From contig NZ_KI912152.1 of assembly GCF_000517105.1 (NCBI RefSeq), positions 62,001-126,000 on the forward strand: DNA of 64,000 nt, given 5' to 3'. Each line of letters begins with the position of its first letter. The stretch's first letter is position 1. This document shows, one piece after another, positions 8,730 to 47,660 of this stretch. Made by a program: the position numbers and the translations under genes. The notes under the pieces are model-generated. The model saw nothing but the letters and a program-made list of their open reading frames with translations. It did not search any database and was not told the DNA's origin. Source of the DNA: Fischerella sp. PCC 9605. GTDB taxonomy: Bacteria; Cyanobacteriota; Cyanobacteriia; Cyanobacteriales; Nostocaceae.

Positions 8730-8841
8730 GATCAAGCCACTACCGTACATAATGCTCCCGCTAACTGCTTGCACGGTATAACGGTGAGTAAATTTTTGAA
8801 TTTAGTTCCTTAATCGAAGGTAAAGTTAAGGATACAGTAGT

Positions 8842-29900: not shown

Positions 29901-30327
29901 TTGCATCACGGCATATTCTAGAATCCCACTGATCTACCAACCGTACATATATGTCTAAGGCTTTCGCATGTAATGATTCTGCCTCTAAGTATTGCCCACG
30001 GTATTGATGGAGCTTAGCTAAGCTATTTAAGATATCTGCTACATTAGGATGCTCTTCTCCTCCTAGTAGACGCTTGCTTATCTCTAAGGCTTCCTGATAT
30101 AGTAATTCAGCATCTGAATATCGCCTCTGATTACTGTAAAGAATAGCTAAGTTAGTTAAGCTGGTTAGTATAATGTCGCTTTCAGAACTTAAATGCTGTC
30201 TTGCTAAGTCTAACGCTTGTTCAGCAACAATTGTTGCTTGATTATATATGCCTTGTTGCTCAAGTTGAACTGTCTTTTGATTAAGCTGTCTCCAAGCACT
30301 TAGATATTCTGTCATTTCTCGCCCCAT
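26911..30327 (-). CDS. TPR-CHAT caspase-like protein
   Basis: A 1138-residue protein. About twelve kinesin-light-chain-type TPR repeats of ~42 residues (residues ~20-510) carry the recurring L-N-N-L-A-x-(L/I)-Y-x-x-Q-G-R-Y-S-E-A-E pattern. After a helical linker (~510-770), a CHAT peptidase domain follows, with the catalytic His918 in A-T-H-G-L-F and Cys1000 in L-S-A-C-N-T-A, then V-M-S-L-W-E-V-P. CHAT is a caspase/separase-clan cysteine peptidase, and TPR repeats usually bind the activating partner or substrate. It stands alone on the strand opposite the CHAT operon. The protein looks intact and active. The target is unknown. Confidence 0.85.
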   Translation of the reverse strand: MGREMTEYLSAWRQLNQKTVQLEQQGIYNQATIVAEQALDLARQHLSSESDIILTSLTNLAILYSNQRRYSDAELLYQEALEISKRLLGGEEHPNVADILNSLAKLHQYRGQYLEAESLHAKALDIYVRLVDQWDSRICRDAIMTLSDLSNVYFEQGRYEEAKKFRQDVLEMGKRLLGEDDSDIGAYLQNLAIVHHVQGEYSEAESLYLEALEISNRSFGEGHPETAFTLLNLTEIYRSQGRYSEAEQLCLNALEVNRNIYGNQYTNVVTKIQNSLGLIYLVQGRYSEAETIFLKILDINRRILGEEHIEVAANLNNLAEIYREQGRYSEAESLCVKALDINRRILGIEHPMIPTGLNNLGLLNYLQERYSEAELLLQEALEIYKRLLGEDHPEITLFLNNLGEIYCTLGRFSEAKSLYDEALSINQRLHREEHPIVAVILNNLATLFHAEGRYPEAEQIYTKALQKTKHAFGENHPHVGLNLSNLANFLAATDRYEDAFSRLLEALQIEDETIDRIFAFSSESDRLAYLQTIRGNMNGFLSLIHKYFPESPQAIYSGLELVLKRKAITMSALASQNQALFSGRYSHLMGDVQKLRDLSEQIIDKTFSFTGIDSSVSYQEELANLQTKYNILQKELAAQVPEIQLQKHLIDYRKIATALPKDSVLVEFVRSNVYNFQVAPTYKESGIEAVRYLAFVLPAQQPDAVRMIPLPEDAEFIGRKIQELRSSAADSSEESLGMWQSDSTLKLNQRYYNKTAAIQLTQVLFYPLREAVSGYKHLIIAPDGDLNLVPFQILPFDETGCRLLTDEFCISYLDVGREILRYQVQSNRPAFSPLVIADPNFDLGEEVINEPSSEILEPVSELLNSLKENRLSRVPSTYFLGKSVANKLKGVELYLGNEALESRLMSDRCPKIMLIATHGLFLPDPQYKSSSLVSGILSDKRFFKMKLEDPMLRTGLALAGANSWLLGGTPPSGAGKGFVFAQEIAGLDLWANELTVLSACNTARGDIRIGEGVFGLRRAFAVAGTKTLVMSLWEVPGRATALLMDYFFDNLKSGLGRAEALREAQNYVRTITIRELRQSPLGLEVLKELFNVQEFNSQVAVACSEDEQPLQHPFYWGAWICQGDTTPLTNVEWCDETP

Positions 30328-31401: not shown

Positions 31402-31812
31402 TTACAACTCGATATCGCTATCTCGACTCGGAAAGAACTGATATTGCCTTTGTCGCGCAGCCGCAATCTCTGAGGGAGTATCATATTCAGTAGCCTTTGT
31501 ACCAAGTTGTAATTCTTGATATAAAGGCACACCATCACCGTCATTATCACTCAGAAGAATCTTAGTCATGATATGAGCAGGGGCAACTTGTGCAAGGCGG
31601 TTAACTACGTTAGCAACAAACTCGTTAGATGCTTCGCAACTGTCAAGATATTTAATAAAAGCATCAGCACAAGCCTCAGTCATCTTCGCTGGGTTTTTAA
31701 CCCCTGCCTCGACTATGAAATCATCATAAATCGCTTTCTCATTATCAGTAAAATTTTCCTTACAAGCTTGCTGGATGATTAACTCAGCCTGCTGTTTTTG
31801 TATAGATTCCAT
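31402..31812 (-). CDS. hypothetical protein with an EF-hand-like loop
   Basis: A 136-residue soluble protein, helical in the first half (rich in E, K and A). Near residue ~90 is D-N-D-G-D-G-V-P-L-Y-Q-E-L, which matches the calcium-binding loop spacing of an EF-hand or dockerin (D-x-D-x-D-G...E). No signal peptide or membrane segment. It is divergent to the CHAT operon, and the 250-base gap between them must hold both promoters. The role is unknown. Calcium binding is an inference from one loop. Confidence 0.5.
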   Translation of the reverse strand: MESIQKQQAELIIQQACKENFTDNEKAIYDDFIVEAGVKNPAKMTEACADAFIKYLDSCEASNEFVANVVNRLAQVAPAHIMTKILLSDNDGDGVPLYQELQLGTKATEYDTPSEIAAARQRQYQFFPSRDSDIEL

Positions 31813-32058
31813 ACTACAAATTTTTAGCTATAACGATTAACAGTATCTTCTGAAAATATTAAGTATGGGCATAGCGATCGCAGAAAAATGCATCCATGAT
31901 TTATATTATGGGTAATTGGCCGTAATCATACATATGATGCAAACAACCTATTAATATGTCTCATTGCTCGCTAGTCAATTCAATCCCGATACCAGAGATT
32001 CGTTCCCGCATATCTGCGTTACCCTACAGAAATTATTTTTCCGGATTTCCAGCTCTTT

Positions 32059-35000
32059 TTGCGGTTAGGTGTACTAAAGTTGAAATTATCTAGTAGGCAG
32101 TATCAAAAACTAGGAGAAGCTTTAATTGATGCTTTTTGTGATAAATCATCACTAGAGCAGATGTTGTTGTTTGAATTAGATAAAAATCTAGATACAATTG
32201 CAAGGAGTAGTAGTTTACAAGCAATTGTCTTTAATTTAATACAGACGGCAGAAGCTCAGGGATGGTTTGAAGACCTAATTCGTGCTGCATATAAGTCAAA
32301 TCCTGGAAACCCACGCTTAAGAGCTATTGCTGAAGAATTGTTACCAAATTTTTATTCGGAAACACTATCTCCTCCTTCATCTAACACTTCAACGGGACAA
32401 AGTACTCAGCAACAAGAAATTTTGATTTTGACAGCAATTCCTCACGGACTGTATTTGGATAAAGAGATTAGAGAAATTGAGGATGCTACCCGCAGAGCTA
32501 CAAGACGGGATTTGTTTGAAATTAGGACAAGAACTGCTGTGCGTCCTCAAGATATTCGCCGCGTGATTGCGGAAGAACGCCCCCAAGTTGTCCATTTTTG
32601 TGGACATGGCTTGGAGGATGGCAGTTTGGTGTTGGAAGATGAGGGGGGAAATAGTAAACCAGTATCACCGGAGGCAATGGCGACACTATTTAAATTGCAC
32701 AGTGATTATGTTAACTGCGTGCTACTCAATGCCTGTTATTCAGCAAAAACTGCTGAGGCAATTAGCCAATACATTAATTATGCGATTGGGATCAATCCGC
32801 TGATTGGAAACAAAGCTGCGATCGCCTTTGCTGTAGGTTTTTACGACGCATTGGCGGCAAATCGATCGATTGAGGAGGCTTTTAAGTTTGGTTGTGTGGC
32901 GATTCAACTCGAAGGCGTACCGGAAGAGTTAACCCCTGTCCTCCTTAAAAAAGTAAACAAACCTCCTACAGTCGATATTGTTGAGGGACAGAATATTCAA
33001 ATTGGCGATCGCATCTATCAAGATGCTGTTAAAGTAATCCTTAATCTTGACTCTCTAATCAGCGCAATTACTGGCATTGCCAATCCTTTGATTAAAGACA
33101 AGCCTCAGCGCAATGAGATAGTCATCAAATTATTAAAACAATTTAACCTTGACCCTGAACATCCACCTGCTGATTTTAGTGGTGTTTATGCCTATACCCT
33201 AGTAGAATACGGCATTGGTAAACCCAAGCCATTCCTTGAACTTTTTCGCCAAGAAGAGATAAAACAAGCTTTTTGCAAAGCATTCGACCATAATAACCCC
33301 TCAATTCTTCTCTCTGAAGTTGATACTTTTCTCAATACCTATGCATTAGGGGATGAGATTAAAACCTTGGGAATTGACATCAGACGAGAAATCGCTACCT
33401 TTGCCACGGTTTTTATCGAACTTGCTAAGCGCAGCAGCCAACAGCAACCTACCAGTCGCGCTCAGGCACTTGCGCGTATTGAGTTGATTAGGGCAAATAT
33501 TCTTGATTTAGAAGTAGATGTCATTGTTAGACCCACCAATATAAATCTCTCTTTTGGGGGAGAGATGAGTCAGCAGATTCTAGAAAGAATTGGTTACGAT
33601 TTGTACCAACAATTGCAGAACCAACCTCAAATACCTGTTGGTGAGGTACTTGTAACAGATGCCAGTTCTTTGCCTGCTCGCTACTTATTTCATGCACCAA
33701 TCGACAAACACATCAACGCTACGGTCACAACTGTTGCAAAGGCAATTACTGCCACTTTAACAAAAGCTGAGAGCGTAGATCGTGTCCGGACAATAGCATT
33801 TCCTTCAATGGGTACTGGTGTTGCGGGTTTAAACCCTACTAAGCTGGCTCCAAAAATCTTAAGAATTGTTGCAAGTCACTTAGAGCGTGGAAGTAAATTA
33901 GAAAAGGTTATTTTTGCTTTTATAGACGAAGTTACATATCAGGCTTATATCAGTGCTTACCAAGCATTGCTTCAAGAAAACTTTGTTACTTACGAAGTTT
34001 TATTAAATACTTCTGCCGAATCAGTGACTATTGGTGGAGAACTTGAAGTTTCAATACGTCTGGGACAACCTGGAAGTAGCGGGAAGGAAGCTTATGTGTT
34101 CCAACTGCCACAGAGTGAAGCTGTAGGATCTGAACTTAATATATTCTTGACTGCCCCTAGTTTTAAGTTCAATGGCGATAACACAACAAGTTTGCTGCTA
34201 GACTCTGATACTTCTCAAATAGCACAAACTGCTCATTTCCACCTCACTGCCCTTCGACCGGGTGCAAATAAAATCAAAGCAGAACTATACTGCGGGGATA
34301 GTTTTAAGGACAGCATAGAAATTGAGGTACAAGTTGATTCGTTTAATGAAAGCGAACTACACCCACTTATCGCCGCCCGATCGCGTCCCGTTGCCCAACC
34401 AGATATAATTCTCCAAGTGCGAACTACTTGGAACGCAGATATCTTTGCGTGTACTTTCAATTATCACATTGATAGCTACCAATCACGCTTGTTATTTGCT
34501 GACGATGTTGACTACACATCACAGTCTTTATCTGCTACTTGGATTGAGCGATACTCCGAAGGAGTCGCTACCTGCGGAAGCCGCTCCGCGTCTACGCGAT
34601 CGCACTCGTTATTAAAATCCACCCTTGAGGAAGCCGCTACTAGCCAACCGGAAGATTTCCGTTCTCGTCTTGCTTCTCTTGGTCAATACCTGTTTAAATC
34701 CTTACTCCCAGAGGAAATGCAAAATACTTTCCGTACGATAGCAGGTTTTAACCGCCCTTTCACCTTACTGATTTTGGCTGACCAAGATGCTTGCTTTCCT
34801 TGGGAATTATTGCATGATGGGCAAAAGTTTTTAGGAGAATACTTTATTATTGGACGGTGGCTATGGGAGTTAGAAAAGACACGTCCCTATGAGTTTCCCG
34901 TAGGTGCGGTGAATGTTGCCCATTATGCCAATGTGGAACAGCCGGAAATCTGGACTGAGCTTTTGCAGCCAACGGGCGCACCACCGCCTATTCCCTTGGT

Positions 35001-35874
35001 GGGTGGTGTACTGGCAGACATTAACTCTACGGAATCCATGCGGGGTTTGCATTTAGTGCGCTTTGGTCAGTCATCGGATGCAGCCGACAGAGAAAATGCC
35101 CCTGTGCAGGTTGATGGCAGTAATACTTACGACATTGAAAGTGAGGTACAACCCGCTAAGTTAAGCTTGCGTCGCAACCGTCCCCTTGTTACTTTGGGCT
35201 ACCTGAGTGCGGGTCAACCGGAATTGACAGTGCTAGAACAAACCTGGGCTTCTACATTTGTACGAGCAGGTTGCAGCGTCTTTGTTGGTTCCCTTTGGGC
35301 AGTGCAACCAAATGTGGAAGCAGCTTTTGTTAGTGCTTTTTATAACAGCATTTGGTCTGGTCAATCTTTGGGTATGGCGTTCCAGACGGCTCGCAGATTG
35401 GCTAAGACAGTTGTACCTGACTCCTTGGACTGGCTGGCTTATGTGCTTTTTGGCGACCCAATGGCGCGTCCTTACCGACCTGTGCAAGGAAAAGGCTATG
35501 CTGTGGTTGAACCCATTGGTCAAGAAATTGATGACCCTGTATCCCCAGGAACAACAATCCGCTTTCGCGTCAGCCTGCGCCGCACACCTCCTGTATGGTA
35601 CGAGAATCGGTTGATGGAGGTGGCTGAAGATTTAACTTTTGAGGATTTACGTGTTTTTATCGTTACGTCCGGATTGCAGGTAACTCCTGATGATTCCATA
35701 CTTATCAGACGCACAGCAACCGGAGATTATCTGGGTTGGTTTACGCTAATTGTCCCTGCTGAGATGGAAAGTCGGTCAGTGTTAGTTCAAGTTTACTTTG
35801 AGGACGGAGTGGAACCCGTTCACAATTTGCGTTTTGCGCTGAATGTTGTGAATCGGGATGGTGAGGGGCAATGA
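32059..35874 (+). CDS. EAD1-CHAT-macro-beta-pseudoCHAT protein (operon gene 1)
   Basis: About 1271 residues in five parts. (1) Residues ~8-97: effector-associated domain 1, with L-S-S-R-Q-Y-Q-K-L-G-E-A-L and G-W-F-E-D-L-I-R-A-A, a death-fold-like adaptor known from bacterial conflict systems. (2) ~120-300: a CHAT peptidase with His183 (F-C-G-H-G) and Cys226 (L-L-N-A-C-Y-S). (3) ~305-460: the linker domain shared with the gene at 25323. (4) ~470-650: a macro domain (I-x-L-I-R-A-N-I-L and F-P-S-M-G-T-G-V-A-G-L). (5) A beta-sandwich (~655-765), then a CHAT-like domain (~885-1145) with F-P-W-E-L-L and V-G-S-L-W-A-V but no His/Cys dyad. A 48-bp repeat insertion sits in frame near 34560-34608. The start is uncertain: TTG at 32059 or 32080, no ATG. 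The end overlaps the next gene (ATGA). Confidence 0.8.
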   Translation: MRLGVLKLKLSSRQYQKLGEALIDAFCDKSSLEQMLLFELDKNLDTIARSSSLQAIVFNLIQTAEAQGWFEDLIRAAYKSNPGNPRLRAIAEELLPNFYSETLSPPSSNTSTGQSTQQQEILILTAIPHGLYLDKEIREIEDATRRATRRDLFEIRTRTAVRPQDIRRVIAEERPQVVHFCGHGLEDGSLVLEDEGGNSKPVSPEAMATLFKLHSDYVNCVLLNACYSAKTAEAISQYINYAIGINPLIGNKAAIAFAVGFYDALAANRSIEEAFKFGCVAIQLEGVPEELTPVLLKKVNKPPTVDIVEGQNIQIGDRIYQDAVKVILNLDSLISAITGIANPLIKDKPQRNEIVIKLLKQFNLDPEHPPADFSGVYAYTLVEYGIGKPKPFLELFRQEEIKQAFCKAFDHNNPSILLSEVDTFLNTYALGDEIKTLGIDIRREIATFATVFIELAKRSSQQQPTSRAQALARIELIRANILDLEVDVIVRPTNINLSFGGEMSQQILERIGYDLYQQLQNQPQIPVGEVLVTDASSLPARYLFHAPIDKHINATVTTVAKAITATLTKAESVDRVRTIAFPSMGTGVAGLNPTKLAPKILRIVASHLERGSKLEKVIFAFIDEVTYQAYISAYQALLQENFVTYEVLLNTSAESVTIGGELEVSIRLGQPGSSGKEAYVFQLPQSEAVGSELNIFLTAPSFKFNGDNTTSLLLDSDTSQIAQTAHFHLTALRPGANKIKAELYCGDSFKDSIEIEVQVDSFNESELHPLIAARSRPVAQPDIILQVRTTWNADIFACTFNYHIDSYQSRLLFADDVDYTSQSLSATWIERYSEGVATCGSRSASTRSHSLLKSTLEEAATSQPEDFRSRLASLGQYLFKSLLPEEMQNTFRTIAGFNRPFTLLILADQDACFPWELLHDGQKFLGEYFIIGRWLWELEKTRPYEFPVGAVNVAHYANVEQPEIWTELLQPTGAPPPIPLVGGVLADINSTESMRGLHLVRFGQSSDAADRENAPVQVDGSNTYDIESEVQPAKLSLRRNRPLVTLGYLSAGQPELTVLEQTWASTFVRAGCSVFVGSLWAVQPNVEAAFVSAFYNSIWSGQSLGMAFQTARRLAKTVVPDSLDWLAYVLFGDPMARPYRPVQGKGYAVVEPIGQEIDDPVSPGTTIRFRVSLRRTPPVWYENRLMEVAEDLTFEDLRVFIVTSGLQVTPDDSILIRRTATGDYLGWFTLIVPAEMESRSVLVQVYFEDGVEPVHNLRFALNVVNRDGEGQ

Positions 35875-37082
35875 GAGGAGTTGGCAGTCCAGTAGGTGTA
35901 CAATTGGCTAGTTCTTGCTTGGAAATATTAATTGAGAAAGATTACTACTCAATTGGACGTTGGAGGTTTTCCAAGCCGGATGATAAAGTCTTGGAAGTGC
36001 TGAGTGAAGAAATTTTAGACTGCTTTGATGCTTTGAGAATAACTATTAATAAAGAAAAAAGCCTCAAGCTAGACGCGGATTTGTGCCATCAGTATTTGGT
36101 AAAGTTAGCTGAGTGGGGACGGACAGCTTACCAAGCGTTTTTTGGTGAAGACAGACCAAATAAAATCCTCACCAGTCGCCTGAATGAAAATGTAGCTCCT
36201 ACCTTTGTTTCTGAAGTTACGCTCTTTCCTTGGGAAGTTTTGTTTGAGGGGAGTGAGGAGGACTACGAACAGGGAAATCCTGAGATGTTTTGGGGACTAC
36301 GCTACACCCCGGCTCGGATTCTCAACCCAGAAAAAGATATCGCAGATTATGTTTTAGAGCAAGCGCAACCTTCAGATATGTTGTTTTGCTTACATCACAG
36401 ATTGCTTCATGCTCACAAAAAGGAAAGACCAGAAATTGAAAGGTTGGTAAGGGTGACAGCAAAAGACCGCTTTACGTTGTTGGGGACAACTTGCAACTTG
36501 ACAAATGGTAAATCTTGCGATCCGTTGGGGGATGATTTACTCAAATATCTTTACAAAGCCAGCCACAATATGTTGCATTTTGCTTGTCATTGTAAGGAAA
36601 GTAAGCTGGGAGATAAATTGCTGATTTCTTTTATTAAAGATGACGAGATAGCAGAAAATGCCTTAGTGTTGGAGTTGGAAACTTACAAATTTTTGTTGCG
36701 CCAGGGGAAATTTCTCTGTCAGCCATTGGTGTTTCTTAATGCTTGTCAGTCGGCTGGGGGTGCGGATGAATTACGGAGGACTTTCAATTTACCCAAGGTG
36801 TTTATTCAGCATGGTGCGGCGGCGGTGATTGCTACGGCTTGTCCGGTTCCGGATATGTTTGCGGCGGCGTTTGCAAAGGTGTTTTATGAGTTTTTTCTAA
36901 GGGGGATGGTGGTGATGGATGAGACTGGGGAGAAAGTCGTTAAATTTATGACAATTGGGGAAGCTTTACGGGCGACGAGGTGGTATTTTTTGAAGGAGTT
37001 TAATAATCCGTTGGGGTTGGCTTATGGGGTTTATAGTCCGGCGAGTTATCGGGTGGGAGAGCAACCTGTTTTGGCAAAATAA
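35871..37082 (+). CDS. CHAT-domain protease (operon gene 2)
   Basis: A 403-residue stand-alone CHAT protein. The N-terminal ~160 residues form an alpha/beta region ending in F-P-W-E-V-L-F-E-G, then the catalytic core with His240 (L-H-F-A-C-H-C) and Cys292 (F-L-N-A-C-Q-S-A-G-G), followed by H-G-A-A-A-V-I-A-T-A-C-P-V-P. The His is followed by Cys rather than Gly, an uncommon variant. Predicted cytosolic cysteine peptidase. Its ATG overlaps the stop of gene 1 by four bases, so the two are coupled, probably at a fixed ratio. It is paralogous to gene 4 (40778-41926), sharing the active-site blocks and the P-L-G-L-A-Y-G end. Confidence 0.85.
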   Translation: MRGVGSPVGVQLASSCLEILIEKDYYSIGRWRFSKPDDKVLEVLSEEILDCFDALRITINKEKSLKLDADLCHQYLVKLAEWGRTAYQAFFGEDRPNKILTSRLNENVAPTFVSEVTLFPWEVLFEGSEEDYEQGNPEMFWGLRYTPARILNPEKDIADYVLEQAQPSDMLFCLHHRLLHAHKKERPEIERLVRVTAKDRFTLLGTTCNLTNGKSCDPLGDDLLKYLYKASHNMLHFACHCKESKLGDKLLISFIKDDEIAENALVLELETYKFLLRQGKFLCQPLVFLNACQSAGGADELRRTFNLPKVFIQHGAAAVIATACPVPDMFAAAFAKVFYEFFLRGMVVMDETGEKVVKFMTIGEALRATRWYFLKEFNNPLGLAYGVYSPASYRVGEQPVLAK

Positions 37083-37130
37083 ACTGATCACATAGATGGG
37101 AATTTATACATTGTGGGACGGATGTAATTA

Positions 37131-40100
37131 ATGTTGGGAACAATACGGGGAGGGCGTTATCGAATTAAACAACTTCTCAGTCGAAGTGGGTTTGATCAAA
37201 CCTATCTTGCTGAAGATATCAATCTTCCAGGTAATCCTAGATGCGTAGTCAAACAATTGATGCCATTAAGTACGGACGTTAACACGTTACAAGTGGTCAG
37301 ACGTTTGTTTGTATCTGAAGCGGAATTATTGGTGCGGCTAGGCAACCATGACCAAATTCCTAAAATTTTAGCTTATTTTGAAGAAAATCAAGAATTATTC
37401 TTAGTTCAAGAATTTATTGATGGACATGACTTAAGTAAGGAAATTATTCCAGGTAAGCAATTAAGCGAAACTTATGTCATAACTTTATTGCAAGATATAT
37501 TGCAGTTACTAAAATTTGTTCATGAAAATAATATAATACATCGTGATATAAAACCTTCCAATCTAGTCAGACGTAGATCAGACAAAAAGATAATTATAAT
37601 TGACTTTCTGGCAAGTAAAGAATTAATTATTCGCACTAAAAGAACTGAATTTCAAAAACAGGAAGAATACTCAACATCAACGATTGCAATTGGTACTCCA
37701 GGCTATATGCCTCCAGAACAAGCTAAGGGTCATCCTGTATTATGCAGTGATATATATGCTGTAGGTATAATTGGAATTCAGGCATTAACAGGAATACAAC
37801 CGCTAGCCTTTCAAGAGGATATTAATACAGGTGAAATTGTTTGGCACAATCAGGCTCAGGTTAGCAAAAAGTTAGCAAACATCTTAGATAAGATGGTGCA
37901 ACCTGATTATAGAAAACGCTACCAGTCTGTAGATGAAGTATTGAAAGCTCTCCACAGTTTGGGAACTCCTACAACCTACATTCCCAAAGGAGACAATATT
38001 TCTGAAAACCCTGTTCAATATATTGGGCGATGGGTACAAAGATTTTTTGCACAAAAGCAGGAAAACTCAAATGAAGCAAAAGAAATAGCAGAAACAGCAA
38101 AATTACCGCCTGTAAAACAGCCAACACTATCACCTGAAACTATTCTACAAACACCGGAGAAAATACTTGAGATAGTTCAGATTTATATTCAGGAAGAACA
38201 CTTTGACCGAGCGTTAGCCACAGCGCAGCAAATTCCAGATGAACAAAAGCATTTAGAAGCACTGACAAAAGTTGTCCAAGCAGTAAGCAAATTGGAAAGT
38301 AATCGTGTTCTTGAATTACTAGCACCACTTCAAAATGACCCTAATGAAAGAGTACGTCAATTAGTAAGAGAACTCCAGTTTACTAGTTTCCCTCAACCCG
38401 AAGCGATCTCCAGTGATGAAGCACTTGCACGCATCGAATTTGTTCAAGGTGATCTACTAGCTCTTGATGTAGATGCTTTGGTAAATCCCACAGGCTTAGA
38501 CGTAAGTAATGGTGGGGCTATTAGTTTGCAACTTTTTGAAAGGCTAGGCTCCCAGCTATACGAAACATTGCAGAATCAACCACTTCTAAGGTCGGGCGAA
38601 GTATTTGTTACTGATGCTGGCTCTCTGCCAGCCCACTACATAATACATACACCTACAGAAGAGAGGGAAGGTCGGCATACAACTGCGAGTATAGTACGGG
38701 GAGTCTCTGCTGCTTTAGCCAAGGCAGATAGCCTAAGCGATGTTCGGACAATAGCTTTTCCCTCAGTGGGAACTGGTGCTGCGGGATTTGATCCAGCTGA
38801 TTTAGCCCCAAAGGTCTTGAGAGCCGTTACAAATCACTTAAAACAAGGCAGTCAGCTAGAGAAAGTTATTTTCACATTTATAGAAGAATTTGCATATCAG
38901 GTTTATGTTAGCGTTTATCAGACATTACTTTCGGAAACGAGTTTAGCTTATGATATCTCATTGACCATATCAAAAGAAGCAACTGGGGTTGGTGGAGAAA
39001 TAGAAGTTTCCATCTATCTGATGCAAATAGGAGCAGATAACCAGAATGATTATTTGCTTCGAGTTCCACAAACTCAAGCTGTTGGAAGTGAACTGAATAT
39101 AATTTTAACTGCCCCCGGTTTTCAGTTCGACAGCGACAACACCGCCAGCTTACCCCTTGACCCCGATACTGCTCAAGAAACCCAAACCGCCCGCTTCCGC
39201 CTAACCGCCCTCCGTCCAGGTAACGCAACCATCACCACCGAACTCTACCAAGGCGACACCTTCGAGACAAAATTAGAAACCAACATCGAAGTATCAGGGT
39301 TTGACGAAACCAGCTTCACCAAAAACCGCATCACAACTCAACCCCGTCCTGTCCCTCAACCAGACTTTATCCTCCGCGTACAACCAGTATGGAATGAAAC
39401 TAACTCTGACGGTATATTCAATTATCAACTTAGAAGCTTCCGTTTTCCTACGGTATTTTCCGGAGAAACCAATTATCAAACGGTATCATTTTCTAATAGT
39501 TGGCTTGAACAAATGCGGGGTATGTTAGCAAATATCCTGAAAAACATATCTGAGGCTACCCGTGAAGACGGTAAATCATCTTTGGTGTCTCTCGGTCAAT
39601 ACCTATTTCAGCATTTTTTCCCCACAGAATTACAAAGCGACTTCCGTAATTTGATACCCCAAAATTACACTTTTACACTTTTAATTCTCGCAGACCAAGA
39701 AGCCTGGATACCTTGGGAACTGTTGCACGACAGTCAAAGATTTCTGGGCGATCGCTTCATCATCGGACGCTGGCTACAAGAATTAAACGACACCAGACCA
39801 TACGAGTTTCCCGTAGGTGCAGTTAACGTCGCCCACTACGCCAATGTCGAACAACCCCAACTGTGGACAACTTTACTAGAAACCCCCGGCGCACCTCCAC
39901 CCCAGCCTTTACCAGCAGGTGTATTACATGACTCCACTGAAGCAATAAGGGGTCTGCACTTAATTCGCTACAGCCAGTCAGCAGACACAGTCAACCGTCG
40001 CAACGCCCCTGTAACCTTAGATAACGCCAATGACACAGAAGACATCGAACACCAAATCCGTCCCGCCAAGCTTAACTTACGTCGCAATCGACCATTAGTT

Positions 40101-40781
40101 ACCTTGGGGTACGTGAAAACCGAAGCACCAGAATTAACAACATTAGAACAAACTTGGGCATCAGCCTTTATCCGGGCTGGATGTAGCGGCTTTATTGGCT
40201 CCCTCTGGGCTGTAGAACCAGCAGTGGAAGCTGCCTTTATTAGTAACTTTTACAACCGTCTGTGGACTGGTGCTTCTTTAGGCGAAGCTTTTTCTACCAG
40301 TCGCCAGCTAGCGCGTGCTGCTGCACCTGACTCCCTCGACTACTTAGCTTACGTTCTCTTTGGCGACCCAATGGCGCGTCCTTACCGTCCTGTGGAAGGT
40401 AAAGGATATGCTGTTGTCGAACCCATTGGTCGAGATATCGATGAACCTCTCCCATCTGGTGTTCCTGTCCGTTTCCGTCTCACCTTGCGTCGCACTCCAC
40501 CAGTATGGCATGAGGAGCGAGTCATCGAAGTTGCCGAAAACTTGACTTTTGAAAATTTACAAGTTCATGTCAAAACTATTGGTTTACAGGTGACTCCAGA
40601 TTCACCAATTGCTATGAGTTTAGCTCCTACAGGCAACTATTTAGGTTGGTTTACCCTGGTTGCACCACCAGAAATGGCAGGTAATTCTGCTTTGGTGCAG
40701 GTTTATTTTATGGATGGAGTGCTACCAATTCATAGCCTCATGTTCTCACTAAATATCGCTGAAGGAGGTGAGACAGCGTGA
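37131..40781 (+). CDS. Ser/Thr kinase-macro-beta-pseudoCHAT protein (operon gene 3)
   Basis: A 1216-residue protein. Residues ~10-285: Hanks-type kinase with the glycine strand altered (L-S-R-S-G-F-D-Q), Lys41 (V-V-K-Q-L), catalytic H-R-D-I-K-P-S-N (Asp139), D-F-L in place of D-F-G (Asp158) and G-T-P-G-Y-M-P-P-E-Q. A helical linker (~345-400) follows, then a macro domain (~425-600; I-E-F-V-Q-G-D-L-L, F-P-S-V-G-T-G-A-A-G-F), a beta-sandwich (~605-740) and a CHAT-like domain (~850-1080) lacking the His/Cys dyad. From the macro domain on it parallels gene 1 closely, so the two differ chiefly in their front ends. Gap to gene 2 is 48 bases; overlap with gene 4 is GTGA. Confidence 0.85.
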   Translation: MLGTIRGGRYRIKQLLSRSGFDQTYLAEDINLPGNPRCVVKQLMPLSTDVNTLQVVRRLFVSEAELLVRLGNHDQIPKILAYFEENQELFLVQEFIDGHDLSKEIIPGKQLSETYVITLLQDILQLLKFVHENNIIHRDIKPSNLVRRRSDKKIIIIDFLASKELIIRTKRTEFQKQEEYSTSTIAIGTPGYMPPEQAKGHPVLCSDIYAVGIIGIQALTGIQPLAFQEDINTGEIVWHNQAQVSKKLANILDKMVQPDYRKRYQSVDEVLKALHSLGTPTTYIPKGDNISENPVQYIGRWVQRFFAQKQENSNEAKEIAETAKLPPVKQPTLSPETILQTPEKILEIVQIYIQEEHFDRALATAQQIPDEQKHLEALTKVVQAVSKLESNRVLELLAPLQNDPNERVRQLVRELQFTSFPQPEAISSDEALARIEFVQGDLLALDVDALVNPTGLDVSNGGAISLQLFERLGSQLYETLQNQPLLRSGEVFVTDAGSLPAHYIIHTPTEEREGRHTTASIVRGVSAALAKADSLSDVRTIAFPSVGTGAAGFDPADLAPKVLRAVTNHLKQGSQLEKVIFTFIEEFAYQVYVSVYQTLLSETSLAYDISLTISKEATGVGGEIEVSIYLMQIGADNQNDYLLRVPQTQAVGSELNIILTAPGFQFDSDNTASLPLDPDTAQETQTARFRLTALRPGNATITTELYQGDTFETKLETNIEVSGFDETSFTKNRITTQPRPVPQPDFILRVQPVWNETNSDGIFNYQLRSFRFPTVFSGETNYQTVSFSNSWLEQMRGMLANILKNISEATREDGKSSLVSLGQYLFQHFFPTELQSDFRNLIPQNYTFTLLILADQEAWIPWELLHDSQRFLGDRFIIGRWLQELNDTRPYEFPVGAVNVAHYANVEQPQLWTTLLETPGAPPPQPLPAGVLHDSTEAIRGLHLIRYSQSADTVNRRNAPVTLDNANDTEDIEHQIRPAKLNLRRNRPLVTLGYVKTEAPELTTLEQTWASAFIRAGCSGFIGSLWAVEPAVEAAFISNFYNRLWTGASLGEAFSTSRQLARAAAPDSLDYLAYVLFGDPMARPYRPVEGKGYAVVEPIGRDIDEPLPSGVPVRFRLTLRRTPPVWHEERVIEVAENLTFENLQVHVKTIGLQVTPDSPIAMSLAPTGNYLGWFTLVAPPEMAGNSALVQVYFMDGVLPIHSLMFSLNIAEGGETA

Positions 40782-41926
40782 GGGGTATTAGCAGTTCGAT
40801 TCCGATACAAAATGAATTTTTTCCTTTAGATATCTTAATTACAGAAACTTCCTACCGCATTAGTATTAACGATTTTTCTAGAAGTGCTACTGACTCTGTA
40901 TTACTAAATTTTACTAAAAATGTCTTGCAGTGTTTTCAGGAAATTGAAAAGACTATAAACAAAAAGAAAGAATTACAACTAACTATAGAAGAACGTAACT
41001 ATTATTTAAAATCTTTAGCGAAATGGGGACGACGCGCTTATCAAGAATTTTTCAACGAAGATGCCCAAAAAGCTACATTCCAATATTCTCAATTAATGAA
41101 ATTCGCTCCCATCTTTGTCTCTAAGCTGCTTCCCTTCCCCTGGGAGGTACTCTATGAGGGAGAATACCAACAAGCCGACCCAGAAAAGTTCTGGGGATTC
41201 TGCCACCCAATTGCTCGTAACATAACTCCTGGTAAAACTGCTCCTTTAGAGCAAATCTTACCATTAAATATGCTGTTTTGTTTACATCATAAACTTCTTC
41301 ACGCTCATCACCAGGAACGACCAGAAATCGAAAAATTAGTTAGAACTCTTGGTAAGTTTTATTTACTGCAACTTTCCAAAGAACTAAAAAAATTAGCAGA
41401 TGGAGAATCTCTAGTCACTCACCTTTATCAAACTCAGCACAACATTCTTCATTTTGCTTGTCACTGTCGCCCCTGTAGACAGTACGAAGATGAAATTGAT
41501 GCTTTAGTTATCTCTTTTATTGAAGATGAAAGCAATGCCCAAGAAATTGAACTAGAAACTTACAATTTTAGTGATGTCAGTGGTAGCTTCCAGTGTCAAC
41601 CCCTGATTTTTCTCAATGCTTGTCAGTCAGCAGGTGGTGTCGATGAATTGCGGAAAACCTTCAACCTACCTGAGAAATTTATTCAGCATGGTGCTGCTGC
41701 TGTCATTGCTACTGCTTGTCCCGTACCGGACTTATTTGCTGCTGCTTTTGCGTCTGTTTTTTATAACTTCTTCATCGGTGAAAAGATGATGATTGGCAAG
41801 GCATTGTGTGAGACTCGGCGGTATTTTTTAGAGAAGTATAATAACCCCTTGGGACTTGCCTACGGTCTTTACAGTTCTCCTTATTATCGAATTGCTCAAG
41901 TTCCTGCTGTGCTGGGGGTTAACTGA
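40778..41926 (+). CDS. CHAT-domain protease (operon gene 4)
   Basis: A 382-residue paralogue of gene 2. It has F-P-W-E-V-L-Y-E-G, His229 in L-H-F-A-C-H-C-R and Cys282 in F-L-N-A-C-Q-S-A-G-G, then the same H-G-A-A-A-V-I-A-T-A-C-P-V-P block. It starts with GTG, overlapping the stop of the kinase-macro gene, and its own stop shares a base with the next ATG (TGATG). The pairing gene 1/gene 2 and gene 3/gene 4 is a duplicated two-gene module; I infer that each big protein controls its neighbouring protease. Confidence 0.85.
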   Translation: MRGISSSIPIQNEFFPLDILITETSYRISINDFSRSATDSVLLNFTKNVLQCFQEIEKTINKKKELQLTIEERNYYLKSLAKWGRRAYQEFFNEDAQKATFQYSQLMKFAPIFVSKLLPFPWEVLYEGEYQQADPEKFWGFCHPIARNITPGKTAPLEQILPLNMLFCLHHKLLHAHHQERPEIEKLVRTLGKFYLLQLSKELKKLADGESLVTHLYQTQHNILHFACHCRPCRQYEDEIDALVISFIEDESNAQEIELETYNFSDVSGSFQCQPLIFLNACQSAGGVDELRKTFNLPEKFIQHGAAAVIATACPVPDLFAAAFASVFYNFFIGEKMMIGKALCETRRYFLEKYNNPLGLAYGLYSSPYYRIAQVPAVLGVN

Positions 41927-42708
41927 TGAATAATTCTGCATATACCTCAGAAATTACCCAGGCAAATGTTGATGCAATTTTGACGCAACTGCAACAACTG
42001 CGTCAGCAGATAACAGCTGCACGAGAAGCAATTGTGCCATTGTCGGCGAATTTAGCAGAGACTTATAACGAATTTCAAGCAGTCGTCGGCGAACTACGCC
42101 GTCAGTCAATGCGCCTGCAAGCGGAAATTGCTACACTGCGTATACAGATTGACCGCTTCCTTAATGATGAGGACGACACCTTCAACCAGGATGAGAGGAA
42201 TGACAACTTGCTCTATGCGACGCAGGAAGAAACAACAGATTCAACTTTACAAGACCCAGAAGCTGTTGAGAAGGATATGCTGCTAGAGCATATTTTTCGC
42301 GTATTAGACCCCGACATTAATTATGAAGATGCCGAATTATTGGCGCATCTACAGGGAGTATGCAGCGATCGCACCACCAGTCTAGCTGATGTTTTAGAAG
42401 AATTACCTTGGGGACTGGTTTGGACAACACGCAGTTTGCAGGAGAACTTAGCACAACAGTACCGTCGTCTCGCCATTTGGGAACAAGCGTTAAAGCGACA
42501 GTCGGAGAACTTAAACCAAGCCACCGAACGTTTGCATAAAGACCAGCGCTACGGACTTTGGCAGCAGCGTCAAAAAGGTGCAGATTACTGGCACAATTTT
42601 CTCAATCAATGTGTTGAGCAGCAGCAAGACCAAAATTACGAATTAGAAGCTGAGTTAAACAGGTTACGGGAGGAGTGGGCGCGGATAACCAGCGCGAATA
42701 AACTATGA
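41926..42708 (+). CDS. coiled-coil adaptor protein (operon gene 5)
   Basis: A 260-residue soluble protein with two long coiled coils: about residues 15-85 (L-x-Q-L-Q-Q-L-R-Q-Q-I heptads) and about 170-255 (Q-R-x-R-R-L-A-I-W-E-Q-A-L and the Trp/Gln-rich end). An acidic, disordered middle (about 85-115) and a helical segment (about 115-165) lie between. I recognise no enzymatic domain. Such proteins often join sensor and effector subunits. Coupled on both sides (TGATG upstream, ATGA downstream), it is clearly part of the operon. Confidence 0.7.
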   Translation: MNNSAYTSEITQANVDAILTQLQQLRQQITAAREAIVPLSANLAETYNEFQAVVGELRRQSMRLQAEIATLRIQIDRFLNDEDDTFNQDERNDNLLYATQEETTDSTLQDPEAVEKDMLLEHIFRVLDPDINYEDAELLAHLQGVCSDRTTSLADVLEELPWGLVWTTRSLQENLAQQYRRLAIWEQALKRQSENLNQATERLHKDQRYGLWQQRQKGADYWHNFLNQCVEQQQDQNYELEAELNRLREEWARITSANKL

Positions 42709-44606
42709 GTAACCAAGACTACCGACTTGACTTACCTGTACCAGTAGGCGGCGAGGACTTACCCATTCCCGTCACTGATAACGCACCACAGCAAGAACCA
42801 GCAAAGGATAAAGCTTTTTTAGAGTGGCATAACTACGCCAGCCAAAGGCATATTCGAGATTTAGCTTTCGACCCAGTTCGAGGGGATTTGTGGTTGGCGA
42901 CGGGGGGAGGAGTGCTGCACTGGTTGCCAGGATTTGACCGATTTACCCGCTACACTAGTGAACATGGATTACCAGGTAACTCAGTAATGGCAGTAGCGGT
43001 GGATGGGTCGGGTCAAGTTTGGGCGGCTCATGAGCATTTCGGACTATACTACCTCAAAAATGACATTTGGCGGCCTTATACCATCTTGGGGGAAGTAAAA
43101 GTTAGCTGTTTAACCACAGACTCCACAGGTTGGCTTTGGGTGGGAACTACTAACGGCATCTATGCTATCAACAGTACAGACCGCAAACCCGTTATCGAAT
43201 TACCCCCTGCTGGTTTTCCTCCCAGGGCGATCGCTTCGCTATTGCACTCTCGGCAGAATGCAGTAGCCAAGGAAAATGATATTTGGCTGTGTAACGCTCA
43301 AGGTGTCTATCATTACCATAACTCTAGCTGGGTACGCTCTACCGATAGCGTGCAACCGGATATTCTGACGCTAGCTCTGCAAGGCAAAAACCTTTGGTTA
43401 GGAACGTTTCGAGGACTGGTGCGAATTGACTTAACGACCAACCAGCCGCATAAAATTGATACTATGCCTAGTCGCGAAATCACTACCCTTGCCCCCTATT
43501 CTCAAGGAGTTTGGGCAGCTTGTGGGGAACAAGTGGGTTTAGCAACGGAGACTGGTTGGACACCTTTGGGAGACAAACAACTCAACAGCACCATCACCAG
43601 TTTGGCAGCAAGTGATGAGCAAGTATGGATTGGCACCCACGATGGACTATGGCGGGGTGGAAAAGAAGGGATGCACCTGCACTTAACGGATACACCACCC
43701 GATGTCATTGGTTTACCTTCTCCTGAACACTCTCCCGCCACCTTCAGCAACCTGGTGCAGGCGCTGTCAGTACAGCAATTGCAAGGGCGTTCTATTTTAT
43801 GGATTGGTACAGTTCGCGGTCTTTATCGTTTAGACCTATTTTCTGAGACTTGGCGGCGCTACGGTCAATTGGGAACACAAGATAACCGTGCAATTACCAC
43901 CAGTACAGAGCAAAAGACTGTTTGGGTTGCTAGCTGGAGTAGCGGTTTACATGGCTTAACACAAAAGAATGAACTGCAAACCGCGCCTGATATTTCTGAA
44001 CCGATTTTAGCCCTAGCTACCAAAAACGCTCAGTACTGGGCTGTCGGTTTAGATGGTCTTTATCATTACAAAGATTCTGTCTGGGTACAAGTAATTTCCT
44101 CTAAAGAACTGCCTGTAAGAGGGTGGCTGCAAGCTGTTGCCCAAGGTGTCACAGACCATGTTTGCTTGGGTACTTCAGCCGGATTGTTGGTCTACAAACT
44201 TGATACAAAACAACTAACGCCAGTCAGTGGCACTTTAGGTAGTGCTGATGTGCGTTCTCTCTTAGCAATTGGACGGGGTGAGTCGGAACTGCTTTGGGTG
44301 GGAACCAGTCAGGGACTGTATGTGGGTAATTTCAGCAATTGGGAGTCTGTATCCGAACTTGAGAAGCGAACAATTACAGCTTTAGTTTGGGATAGTAATG
44401 CTAGTAGTTTGTGGGTTGGGACAGATAGAGGGTTATTTCGTTTGCTTGCTGTGGGCAATAGCTGGAAGATAGCAAACGAATTTCACATCCATAATAGCGG
44501 CTTGGGGGCAAATCGGGTAACAGCGCTTGCTATTAGCACGGGTGAGGATGGTGAAACTAAATTATGGGTAGGTACACCATGCGGTTTGAGTTGCTACACC
44601 TACTAA
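42705..44606 (+). CDS. beta-propeller protein with two-component-regulator-type repeats (operon gene 6)
   Basis: A 633-residue protein made of about twelve or more ~40-residue blades with the repeating W-(V/L)-G-T-x-x-G-(L/I)-(Y/F/W) and V-(W)-A motifs, like the ligand-binding propellers in hybrid sensor kinases (Reg_prop). There is no signal peptide, so it is probably cytosolic. Two propellers of about six to seven blades could be formed. It may serve as the binding platform or sensor of the operon. It is the last gene; the next frame starts 138 bases later. Its start overlaps gene 5 (ATGA). Confidence 0.8.
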   Translation: MSNQDYRLDLPVPVGGEDLPIPVTDNAPQQEPAKDKAFLEWHNYASQRHIRDLAFDPVRGDLWLATGGGVLHWLPGFDRFTRYTSEHGLPGNSVMAVAVDGSGQVWAAHEHFGLYYLKNDIWRPYTILGEVKVSCLTTDSTGWLWVGTTNGIYAINSTDRKPVIELPPAGFPPRAIASLLHSRQNAVAKENDIWLCNAQGVYHYHNSSWVRSTDSVQPDILTLALQGKNLWLGTFRGLVRIDLTTNQPHKIDTMPSREITTLAPYSQGVWAACGEQVGLATETGWTPLGDKQLNSTITSLAASDEQVWIGTHDGLWRGGKEGMHLHLTDTPPDVIGLPSPEHSPATFSNLVQALSVQQLQGRSILWIGTVRGLYRLDLFSETWRRYGQLGTQDNRAITTSTEQKTVWVASWSSGLHGLTQKNELQTAPDISEPILALATKNAQYWAVGLDGLYHYKDSVWVQVISSKELPVRGWLQAVAQGVTDHVCLGTSAGLLVYKLDTKQLTPVSGTLGSADVRSLLAIGRGESELLWVGTSQGLYVGNFSNWESVSELEKRTITALVWDSNASSLWVGTDRGLFRLLAVGNSWKIANEFHIHNSGLGANRVTALAISTGEDGETKLWVGTPCGLSCYTY

Positions 44607-44743
44607 CCAATCCAAAATCTAAAATAAAAATGCCTCACGCCCTCTGTCGAAATATTTTGATATTAAATGTATCCTGTAAAATTATTAGGGAACTGAGCTT
44701 CAATTTGGAGCAGGAGTGTTAATTTTATCTGTAATTTCAAAAA

Positions 44744-45046
44744 ATGAGTGAACATCAAATGAAAATTAAAGGTATCAAACGCGGTCAAACGATTGAACTA
44801 TTAGAACAAATTAATGATATCCCTGATGGTACAGAAATTATCGTTGAATTTGTGATTTCTTCAAATCAAATAACAAAAACTCCACAAACTTTAAGTGATG
44901 AAGAAAGGCTCTCCAAACTCAACCAATTATTTGGTGTTTGGCAAGACCAACCTGAACTAGTAGAAATATTTGCAGAAATTGACCAACAACGCCACGCTTA
45001 TCGAGGTAGAGTTATCGATTCTATTGAAAATCAAGATAAGCAATAA
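44744..45046 (+). CDS. vapB: antitoxin of a VapBC-type pair
   Basis: A ~100-residue protein directly before a PIN-domain toxin with TAATG overlap at 45046. The N-terminus (K-I-K-G-I-K-R-G-Q-T-I-E-L-L) is a beta-strand type DNA-binding start, with an A-b-r-B-like flavour. The C-terminal half is acidic and likely disordered, typical of an antitoxin arm that covers the toxin's active site. The start may be the first Met or the Met six residues in (M-K-I-K). Antitoxin-toxin order and the overlap are characteristic. Confidence 0.7.
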   Translation: MSEHQMKIKGIKRGQTIELLEQINDIPDGTEIIVEFVISSNQITKTPQTLSDEERLSKLNQLFGVWQDQPELVEIFAEIDQQRHAYRGRVIDSIENQDKQ

Positions 45047-45438
45047 TGTACTTGTTAGATACTAATATTTGCATTGCACTACTTAATAATAACCCCAAGG
45101 CAGTTGCAAAATTTAATTTTTTATTTGCTCAATGTTATATTTCTACAATAGTTGTTTCAGAACTTTATAAAGGTGTTTACTGTTCCCAGCAAGTTGAAAA
45201 GAATTTAGAAATATTAGCACAGTTAACTCAACTGCTAACAGTTGAACCATTTGACTTAAATGCGGCTGTTGAATTTGGTAAGATTCAAAGCGAACTCAGA
45301 CAAATTGGTAAACCAACAGGGGAAATTGATGCGTTGATTGGTGCTGTTGCGCGATCGCGTAATGATATTCTTGTTACTAATAACATCAAAGATTTTGAAA
45401 ATATCCTCAATTTGCAGTTAGAGAACTGGCTGGAGTGA
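45046..45438 (+). CDS. vapC: PIN-domain ribonuclease toxin, VapC
   Basis: A 130-residue PIN protein with the four acidic positions: Asp5 (L-L-D-T-N), Glu39 (V-V-S-E-L), Asp95 (G-E-I-D-A-L-I-G) and Asp116 (N-I-K-D-F-E-N). VapC toxins cut tRNA or rRNA with Mg or Mn. The gene is complete and coupled to the antitoxin gene. It follows the CHAT operon and may stabilise the plasmid. Confidence 0.85.
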   Translation: MYLLDTNICIALLNNNPKAVAKFNFLFAQCYISTIVVSELYKGVYCSQQVEKNLEILAQLTQLLTVEPFDLNAAVEFGKIQSELRQIGKPTGEIDALIGAVARSRNDILVTNNIKDFENILNLQLENWLE

Positions 45439-46996: not shown

Positions 46997-47178
46997 TGTA
47001 CGTTAAGACAATCTTGATCGCCAGCAAGCCCAAGAAATTCGTTCTCAAGGCTTGATTAAACGGTCGATTAAAAGAAGTTTGGACGATGCTACAGATTGAA
47101 GGGCGATCTCTATAAGTCTTGCGAGGAAGGGATTGCTCCCCTAGCGTACAGTTTACCCCCCACGGGTACGCTGACCCC
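46970..47178 (-). mobile_element. 209-bp MITE, copy C (inverted relative to A and B)
   Basis: The complement of this stretch appears identical to copies A and B over the full 209 bases. It joins the truncated pentapeptide gene on its left and the headless SNF2 fragment on its right, with no sign that the two were ever one gene. I infer recombination between MITE copies rather than a simple insertion. Confidence 0.8.
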
Positions 47179-47179
47179 A

Positions 47180-47655
47180 TCTTTAGTCAGTTTACGGAAG
47201 TCTGCGAACAAATCGAAAAATATCTCAAACACAATCTGCATTGCAATACTTACTATCTACATGGAGGTACTAGTCGCCAACTTCGAGAACAAATGATTAG
47301 TGATTTCCAAAACCCAGAAACAGAACCATCTGTGTTTGTGCTTTCCCTAAAAGCAGGTGGTGTTGGTATTACTCTCACTAAAGCTAATCATGTCTTTCAC
47401 TTTGACCGTTGGTGGAACCCAGCAGTTGAAGACCAAGCCACTGACCGTGCTTTTCGGATTGGTCAAAACAAGAATGTCTTTGTGCATAAATTTGTGGCAA
47501 TTGGTACTTTAGAAGAGAGAATCGACTCCTTGATTGAAGATAAGAAAAAACTCTCTTCAATGGTAGTTGTCAGTGATGAATCTTGGTTAACTCAATTAGA
47601 TAATGAAGCCTTTAAACAATTAATAGCCTTGAATAAGAGTACTATTTTGGAGTGA
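47180..47655 (+). pseudogene. C-terminal fragment of a SNF2-family helicase
   Basis: The frame starts at the MITE edge with I-F-S-Q-F-T-E-V and continues through Y-L-H-G-G-T, V-F-V-L-S-L-K-A-G-G-V-G-I-T-L-T, H-F-D-R-W-W-N-P-A-V-E-D-Q-A-T-D-R-A-F-R-I-G-Q, which are motifs IV-VI of the Snf2 C-terminal lobe, then the L-I-E-D-K-K-K-L end. The first lobe and most of the ~1000-residue protein are missing. A SWIM-domain gene follows (47661), the usual partner of this bacterial helicase. Confidence 0.8.
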
Positions 47656-47660
47656 GTATT

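Follow-up and report, generated by a model that had tools for sequence, protein, structure and literature searches.

An operon of the cyanobacterium Fischerella sp. PCC 9605 appears, from comparison with its relatives, to combine exchangeable N-terminal domains, hereafter called heads, with a constant set of caspase-like protease genes. Its six open reading frames (ORFs; g1 to g6) occupy positions 32059-44606 of the window, as we call the whole 64,000-nucleotide stretch of contig NZ_KI912152.1 that was analysed, and all lie in one orientation (+). Compared across genomes, they form a constant chassis in the order A-B-A'-B'-coil-propeller, behind which most relatives carry genes for an Hsp70 and a clostripain-family (C11) protease. 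We interpret the locus as a polymorphic conflict or cell-death machine with exchangeable heads on a constant protease chassis, and give this reading a probability slightly above one half (about 0.52). Its interest lies in the swappable-head architecture and in the larger eight-gene set, which links Hsp70 and clostripain with caspase-like CHAT proteases within one gene cluster.

The chassis is built around two repeated pairs. Proteins A (g1) and A' (g3) have in common a C-terminal module (C-module) of ~620 aa that is 57% identical between them, and the CHAT proteases B (g2) and B' (g4) are paralogues with 53% identity; coil and propeller thus follow a tandem A-B-A'-B'. The tree of the CHAT proteases places B and B' on two fully supported sides (100/99), and A and A' are also separate in theirs, with weak support (66/36). 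Since Nodosilinea and CCT1 have one copy on each side of both trees, the A-B duplication is probably older than the split of these two from the other lineages. B' itself occurs in two deep types across loci, the window and G018 proteins being 51% identical.

The two repeated parts differ in their catalytic residues. The His/Cys dyad is invariant in 19 of 19 aligned B/B' sequences and missing from the C-module in 23 of 23, where the Cys position was scored by profile alignment with B and the second His position by motif only; these conservation counts refer to loci found by similarity, with mostly complete genes. Pfam matches to CHAT in the C-module lie above the cut-off in g3 (E 3.1e-7) and below it in g1 (22.6 bits, cut-off 24), and in the structure model the beta-sandwiches at both ends are fairly confident and the middle is weak (mean pLDDT 59.1). 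We assign the C-module, with moderate confidence, to a dyad-less CHAT-like fold. B/B' match one CHAT chain in the PDB (8rot, E 3.1e-5), and a sequence search of the PDB with the C-module returned nothing below E 0.38. Foldseek returned for the C-module, among the 50 matches listed, largely beta-sandwich proteins such as complement C3/C4, whose TM-scores to the query are 0.11-0.15, a likeness that we take as fold-level only. Distant single-gene relatives of the C-module occur at L104 (9741-13013) and L105 (8536-9708), with profile E values of 1e-30 and 5e-21, and represent a possible origin of the C-module as a socket for heads. Distant single-protein relatives in G303 and G271 were rejected as operons of this kind.

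Comparison at the DNA level indicates that heads have been replaced and have not just diverged. The window is 95.9% identical to Fischerella muscicola over 36371-37054 and 93.3% over 38366-44606, and its kinase stretch, which lies between, has no match in that locus, where TPR repeats stand instead. Among twelve pairs (the pairs for head comparison, for junction identity and for the ratio of non-synonymous to synonymous substitution, dN/dS, were chosen by us), six have unrelated heads (match <=22 nt) on C-modules with 80-92% DNA identity; one head involved, that of Rhizonema PD38, is truncated at its start. In the other six pairs, head similarity is limited to a part in three and extends over most or all of the head in three. 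The C-modules of G087 are 91-92% identical in DNA to those of Nostoc linckia and 89-91% to those of CAIVAU, a metagenome-assembled genome (MAG), with neither head related in either comparison.

The change from unrelated to conserved sequence lies near the start of the C-module. DNA similarity between the window's A and four loci with other heads starts at 34113-34132, which is 46-52 residues into the module, and similarity between the window's A' and three loci starts 9, 20 and 54 residues into it. In 17 pairs with unrelated or partly shared heads, C-module residues 1-50 have a mean identity of 36% vs 83% for residues 53-630, with window A' vs N. linckia A' as the exception (71% in residues 1-50); six pairs sharing a head or macro domain have means of 63% and 82%. 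We infer that residues 1-50 move together with the head and that the conserved stretch behind them serves as a recombination anchor. Between the window and G018 lineages, the A' head has moved alone, as synonymous divergence (dS) is 0.23 for the heads and 0.47-1.58 for five adjoining parts. The chassis is under purifying selection: of 28 dN/dS comparisons, 27 gave values of 0.08-0.30 and one was saturated; two head comparisons gave 0.27 and 0.36.

The repertoire of heads is broad. The EAD1-CHAT-NNH5-Macro head was found on the window's A, and the kinase-Macro head of its A' occurs also in G018 and Rhizonema NSF051. Other loci carry TPR-Macro (Fischerella, G358), TPR (Rhizonema PD38, truncated; G021, a remnant), HTH-phosphoesterase-TPR (CAIVAU, N. 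linckia), three CHAT domains (CAIVAU), iSTAND and kinase-NACHT heads (G087), kinase (G018; Nodosilinea, truncated), two HTH domains (Calothrix CSU_2_0), CHAT-NNH5-iREase-NACHT (N. linckia), caspase C14 (UBA11372; Calothrix elsteri, broken), C14-Macro (G353), TIR-kinase (CCT1), NfeD-NB-ARC (Nodosilinea, CCT1) or a head of no clear family (Symploca). One head type can occupy both slots: CHAT-NNH5 of g1 is 65% identical to part of the N. linckia A' head. A separate ORF with NNH5 and DUF4384 lies ~6 kb upstream of the operon (window 25323-26345, +), and its NNH5 is 49% identical to that of g1.

This diversity bears on the model given in the initial annotation of the window, in which ADP-ribose (through the macro domains) and phosphorylation (through the kinase) license CHAT proteases recruited via EAD1. 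All three domains are truly in the window copy, macro domains occur in several other heads, and the kinase has a candidate lysine and HRD, two of the motifs to which roles in kinases are assigned, together with DFL where the third, DFG, is expected. However, kinase, macro and EAD1 all sit in exchangeable heads, and the CAIVAU and Nostoc linckia operons have none of them; gating by ADP-ribose and phosphorylation therefore does not fit as a general mechanism, and a single fixed domain set is excluded. The window's genome (99.94% complete) showed one EAD1 only, that of g1, so recruitment of a partner through EAD1 is unsupported. As a whole, we regard that model as very improbable.

The heads may sense or execute, both kinds of domain being represented among them. 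They could be effectors on a chassis that acts as a constant sensor or activator, so that proteolysis by B, B' or C11 would free or activate the fused enzyme (TIR, caspase, CHAT, kinase or phosphoesterase), a scheme proposed elsewhere for systems whose effectors vary. Several heads are indeed enzyme kinds listed as effectors of described systems in the excerpted text of PMC7159879, and the constant propeller and Hsp70 could serve as sensor. This alternative seems doubtful to us: TPR, HTH and iSTAND heads contain no recognised effector enzyme, NB-ARC and NACHT are sensor-type domains, and no shared cleavage site is apparent at the junction because C-module residues 1-50 differ strongly.

In relatives, the polymorphic machine that we propose extends beyond the propeller, with an Hsp70 gene and a clostripain-family protease gene on its 3' side (Pfam HSP70 8e-163 and 9e-167 in two copies; Peptidase_C11 4e-47 to 7e-45 in three). 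In 11 loci g6 is complete and the sequence continues past it, and in 10 of these Hsp70 follows at 11 nt to 5.4 kb; eight loci extend far enough to judge C11, and seven have it. The window is the exception in both counts. The unit of six genes initially annotated is thus what the window holds, whereas three relatives read through this stretch (L030, L031, L034) have eight. NHGTGW and DACLM, which we take to be the active-site motifs of C11, are kept in all six complete C11 copies. At E<=1e-20 among 198 relatives, C11 was detected in seven of the nine genomes with a near-full-length propeller (not in the window's own, nor in G084, where the contig ends first) and in 6 of 189 relatives without one. 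Three of those six, G001, G021 and G131, have operon remnants, G111 has a 50-aa piece, and G059 and G090 are distant (35-36%).

The missing end of the window copy raises the possibility that it is a decaying remnant which lost Hsp70 and C11 and no longer works. Homology to relatives stops ~20 nt after g6; the C11 query, which matches 13 other relatives, has no match in the window's genome, and the Hsp70 query found there four DnaK-like proteins at 42-43% and two weak partial matches. Degraded operon remnants are known from G180, G131, G021 and G001 (L037, L038, L039, L101). Nevertheless, decay is an unlikely explanation, as all six ORFs are open and dN/dS vs Fischerella is 0.08-0.26 in four parts, values that average over the time before the loss too. 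Where close relatives have Hsp70, the window has a PIN-domain gene and a small preceding gene (44744-45438, +), which are toxin-antitoxin-like by layout. In Fischerella, a TniQ gene stands directly after C11 (L029 15667-16611, -), hinting that the operon may be carried there by a Tn7-like element.

The gene order of the chassis is kept where the locus is complete. Pattern scanning of 84,980 species genomes yielded 15 loci, all titled cyanobacteria and most belonging to filamentous genera. Together with loci from relatives, and omitting duplicates of one contig, 25 loci were tabulated; seven have the complete six-gene order (the window, the CAIVAU MAG, G087, G018, Nostoc linckia FACHB-104, Nodosilinea LEGE 07298 and CCT1) and none has a different order. 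The order is retained at C-module identities of 42-45% in Nodosilinea LEGE 07298 and CCT1. Recurrence of the genes as a unit was the check set with the initial annotation; it holds for the coupled protease gene set (7/25 loci) but not for the named EAD1, kinase and macro domains, which are not conserved. Because the six genes are found together in other genomes, the contrary expectation, that they would be scattered and never together, fails. Contig ends truncate some of the remaining 18 loci, and the others are broken: in Calothrix CSU_2_0, A is broken and B missing on one contig and A'-B' has collapsed on a second, and both contigs continue; in UBA11372, neither A nor B was seen within 8 kb ahead of A', and the propeller has only 58 residues; and parts are broken in the Calothrix elsteri, Dulcicalothrix and Fischerella loci although the contigs continue.

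Occurrence is patchy. A near-full-length propeller is present in 9 of 198 relatives, own genome counted, and congeners are without it. Of 388 genomes sampled within the order, 7 have the C-module (own counted; two distant only, one remnant), as do 2 of 386 sampled within the phylum; these counts are lower bounds because at most three candidates per genome were scored. Exact-peptide patterns revealed no phage-borne copy in viral contigs. In a plasmid collection, the A' C-module query matched one record, a partial 38% CHAT match in Hymenobacter, and the coil (g5) query matched none. Judged by the longest BLAST piece only, g6 is more similar than rpoB in DNA in 2 of 21 pairs (window-Fischerella, 92 vs 89%; CAIVAU-G087, 89 vs 83%), so this test does not indicate recent transfer for most pairs.

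The 451-kb replicon of the window is probably a plasmid, because it encodes ParA/ParB (49376-50933, +) and its ParB shares 81% identity with one from a Nostoc sp. C057 plasmid; the operon copies of G087 and G018 lie on contigs of 9 and 11.6 Mb. PADLOC detected defence-type genes among selected upstream ORFs at five of six related loci, namely DrmD with a type IIG/DrmMI-like gene, DpdE, DndB and, at two loci, AriA/PtuA-type ATPases. The window itself encodes, in divergent orientation to the operon, a TPR-CHAT protein (1138 aa; 26911-30327, -) whose CHAT domain is complete, in a genome with 34 CHAT matches altogether. It also contains a type I-D Cas3d-like helicase (6348-8774, -) with a Cas1-like fragment (5183-5629), a helicase C-terminal piece with a SWIM protein (47119-48500, +) that looks like the remains of an SNF2 defence helicase, and pieces of reverse transcriptase/group II intron maturase (55909-56490 and 58841-59992, +).

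Two further explanations draw on the organisms that carry the operon. CHAT takes its name from HetF, and CHAT proteins, HetF among them, have roles in controlling division and heterocysts; as all 15 pattern-scan loci are cyanobacterial and mostly from filamentous genera, the operon could be a regulatory or developmental system of filamentous cyanobacteria and not an immune one. We consider this improbable, since the patchy occurrence described above, together with head replacement, degraded copies, a plasmid-like replicon and defence neighbours, would be unusual for such a regulator. Unrelated heads on a conserved chassis in related organisms would likewise suit self/non-self recognition or antagonism among filaments, the heads being allotypes like those of fungal incompatibility genes. 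Against this idea, which we think highly unlikely, no clear membrane or export feature is seen in the operon proteins by 19-aa hydropathy: the best means are 0.58-1.67, and only g4 exceeds the usual threshold of 1.6, within its CHAT domain.

Several observations weigh against our reading of the locus as a polymorphic conflict machine. The heads are a mixture of sensor-like and enzyme-like domains, and many operon copies are incomplete or decayed. Three relatives (L033, L035, L036) have an interrupted Hsp70 frame, UBA11372, with its broken propeller, has no Hsp70 in the 2.4 kb beyond, and the window copy has neither Hsp70 nor C11. The CHAT fold of the C-module rests on the Pfam matches in g3 and g1; profile-profile comparison with B gave a probability of 12.5% (E 0.0023), and the structure model is poor at residues 291-470 (block pLDDT 24-46). 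Since His359 is invariant and Cys433 almost invariant elsewhere in the C-module, this part may have an unusual active site. Residues 1-50 are only 42-52% identical in three of the six pairs that share a head, so they are also fast-evolving. Finally, the defence neighbours were selected by eye, without a background rate, and L034, the sixth locus, has no defence-type gene among its selected upstream ORFs.

If the polymorphic reading is right, the dyad-less module of each A protein would dock the adjoining active CHAT protease (A:B and A':B'), in the manner of pseudo-caspases with caspases, and coil and propeller would scaffold the complex. Hsp70 could hold the complex poised or report phage-induced misfolding. 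A head would detect infection or act as an enzyme, and switch on or work with B and B' (and C11), with cell death or growth arrest as the possible outcome. Recombination would replace heads, through which lineages could escape phage counter-measures or gain new inputs. Since the window lacks the Hsp70/C11 end, its system may be impaired or may rely on general DnaK instead. A more far-reaching proposal, which we put forward tentatively as plausible but short of probable, is an undescribed eight-gene class of immune or cell-death systems: two caspase-like docking tails without the dyad, onto which nearly any immune head (NLR-type NTPase, TIR, caspase, kinase, TPR or phosphoesterase) could be placed as a replaceable cassette, a CHAT protease for each tail, and a dedicated propeller, coil, Hsp70 and clostripain, which together would make up a split apoptosome with a universal socket.

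The locus offers natural, near-isogenic domain swaps, with kinase vs TPR on one socket and the following 6.2 kb 93% identical. With these swaps a long-standing question can be tested, namely whether the many immune domains of multicellular bacteria are inputs to a shared protease core, or its outputs, that can be exchanged for one another. The socket sequence could in addition be used to discover new immune domains fused ahead of it.

The features of the window copy are given in the table below. Its six co-oriented genes have the one- and four-base overlaps and the 48-base gap between g2 and g3 that were initially annotated (distances from g1 to g6 of -4, +48, -4, -1 and -4 nt), and this spacing suggests that g1-g6 form one transcript. 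A promoter scan gave 30 sites, compared with a mean of 21.5 in shuffled sequence (sd 4.7); the minus strand has 22, and no plus-strand site lies at 31700-32059. The position of the g1 start codon (TTG, 32059) is uncertain. EAD1, both macro domains, the kinase and the propeller are above their Pfam cut-offs, and the three CHAT domains with a His/Cys dyad are present in the g1 head, g2 and g4, all as first described. The coiled coil agrees with an AlphaFold model of g5 that is helical, with residues 12-80 in one long helix and a further helical part at the C-terminus (mean pLDDT 74.6), although no Pfam family was above cut-off; g5 is 51-95% identical to 13 aligned relatives. NNH5 in g1, the common C-module, the tandem g1-g2/g3-g4 duplication and the two further genes in relatives go beyond that description.

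Table. Features of the operon and its downstream boundary (window positions).
Feature	Position	Strand	Composition or evidence
g1, protein A	32059..35874	+	variable head EAD1-CHAT-NNH5-Macro joined to constant C-module
EAD1, head of A	32083..32340	+	Pfam 4.7e-28
CHAT with His/Cys dyad, head of A	32464..32880	+	Pfam 3.5e-13; HFCGHG179/NACYS224
NNH5 (NACHT N-terminal helical domain 5), head of A	33046..33438	+	Pfam 1e-54
Macro, head of A	33526..33843	+	Pfam 6.4e-14
Constant C-module of A	33976..35871	+	beta-sandwich, dyad-less CHAT-like part, beta-sandwich
g2, B, CHAT protease with His/Cys dyad	35871..37082	+	Pfam 5.9e-13; HFACHC236/NACQS290
g3, protein A'	37131..40781	+	head (Hanks-type kinase, linker, Macro) joined to constant C-module
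Pkinase match, head of A'	37302..37943	+	Pfam 7.1e-30
Macro, head of A'	38481..38807	+	Pfam 6e-16
Constant C-module of A'	38928..40778	+	sequence comparison with A
g4, B', CHAT protease with His/Cys dyad	40778..41926	+	Pfam 2.2e-15; HFACHC225/NACQS280
g5, helical coiled-coil protein	41926..42708	+	no Pfam family above cut-off
g6, Reg_prop propeller, 633 aa	42705..44606	+	Pfam 1.3e-16
End of operon homology, ~20 nt beyond g6	44607..44743		DNA comparison with relatives

The gene set has no description in the titles, abstract starts and passages of the open-licence literature searched, a search with supplementary tables outside its range, nor in the excerpted text of PMC7159879, PMC8195603, PMC10907252, PMC12691664 and PMC12169576; it may sit in a published supplementary table. 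PADLOC recognises individual parts only, among them chat, SAVED_CHAT and DarG for g1 and, for g3, PD-T4-6 and other kinases; the Hsp70 and C11 of a relative have no PADLOC match, and the whole set equals no PADLOC system. The kinase of the window's A' matches the PD-T4-6 models at up to 1.5e-99; this match covers residues 7-277 of 1216, and the kinase is here one of many heads, fused to a macro domain and the C-module. BovA of the Borvo system is likewise a CHAT protease, with weak PADLOC matches over 54 aa of g2 (E 0.0014) and 70 aa of g4 (E 0.0005). The TPR-CHAT protein of Craspase is reportedly a CHAT protease in phage defence; in contrast to Craspase, the operon has no CRISPR gRAMP. Polymorphic toxin systems also combine a constant part with domains exchanged by recombination, but the exchange observed here is N-terminal, involves sensor- and effector-like domains, and comes with no clear export feature.

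According to the excerpted text of PMC7159879, MoxR-vWA ternary systems (VMAP, iSTAND, FtsH and propeller types) have a constant core and variable effector domains, and are associated with caspase-superfamily peptidases, EADs, largely multicellular bacteria and the idea of a chaperone-NTPase. A constant core with variable domains is also found in our operon, a property that is common and not sufficient, whereas the variability here is N-terminal, on a dyad-less CHAT-like module. In a bpMoxR search of five genomes, the matches lie on another contig or at least ~0.85 Mb from the operon in four, and none was found in the fifth; no MoxR AAA+ ATPase is in or near the operon, and no vWA or VMAP was seen in the six genes or in the neighbours chosen for scanning. 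One weak Ig_VWA7 match (an Ig-like domain) beside L036 is below cut-off. Membership in the MoxR-vWA systems is ruled out by the bpMoxR search and the neighbour scans.

The same source, as excerpted, describes GAP1-N2 GTPase-centric systems with Hsp70/GrpE and variable components, mainly in actinobacteria and firmicutes (PMC7159879). Hsp70 as an operon member and variable components are features in common, while C11 and two CHAT proteases in cyanobacteria set our locus apart; no GTPase/GAP1 core is present in the six genes, and one ORF beside L031 has weak dynamin/GTPase matches. The NucA-peptidase system has several peptidases per operon, some with EAD1, and combines trypsin/subtilisin with a NucA nuclease (PMC7159879, excerpted text). 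Multiple peptidases and EAD1 also occur together in our operon, but trypsin/subtilisin and NucA nuclease are not seen in it. In bNACHT25, an NLR-like NACHT protein, sensing needs DnaJ, so that a single defence protein cooperates with a host chaperone (PMC12169576, excerpted text). Some of the heads described here are also of the NACHT or NB-ARC type and relatives' operons include an Hsp70 gene, but in these operons a multi-gene set comes with an Hsp70 of its own.

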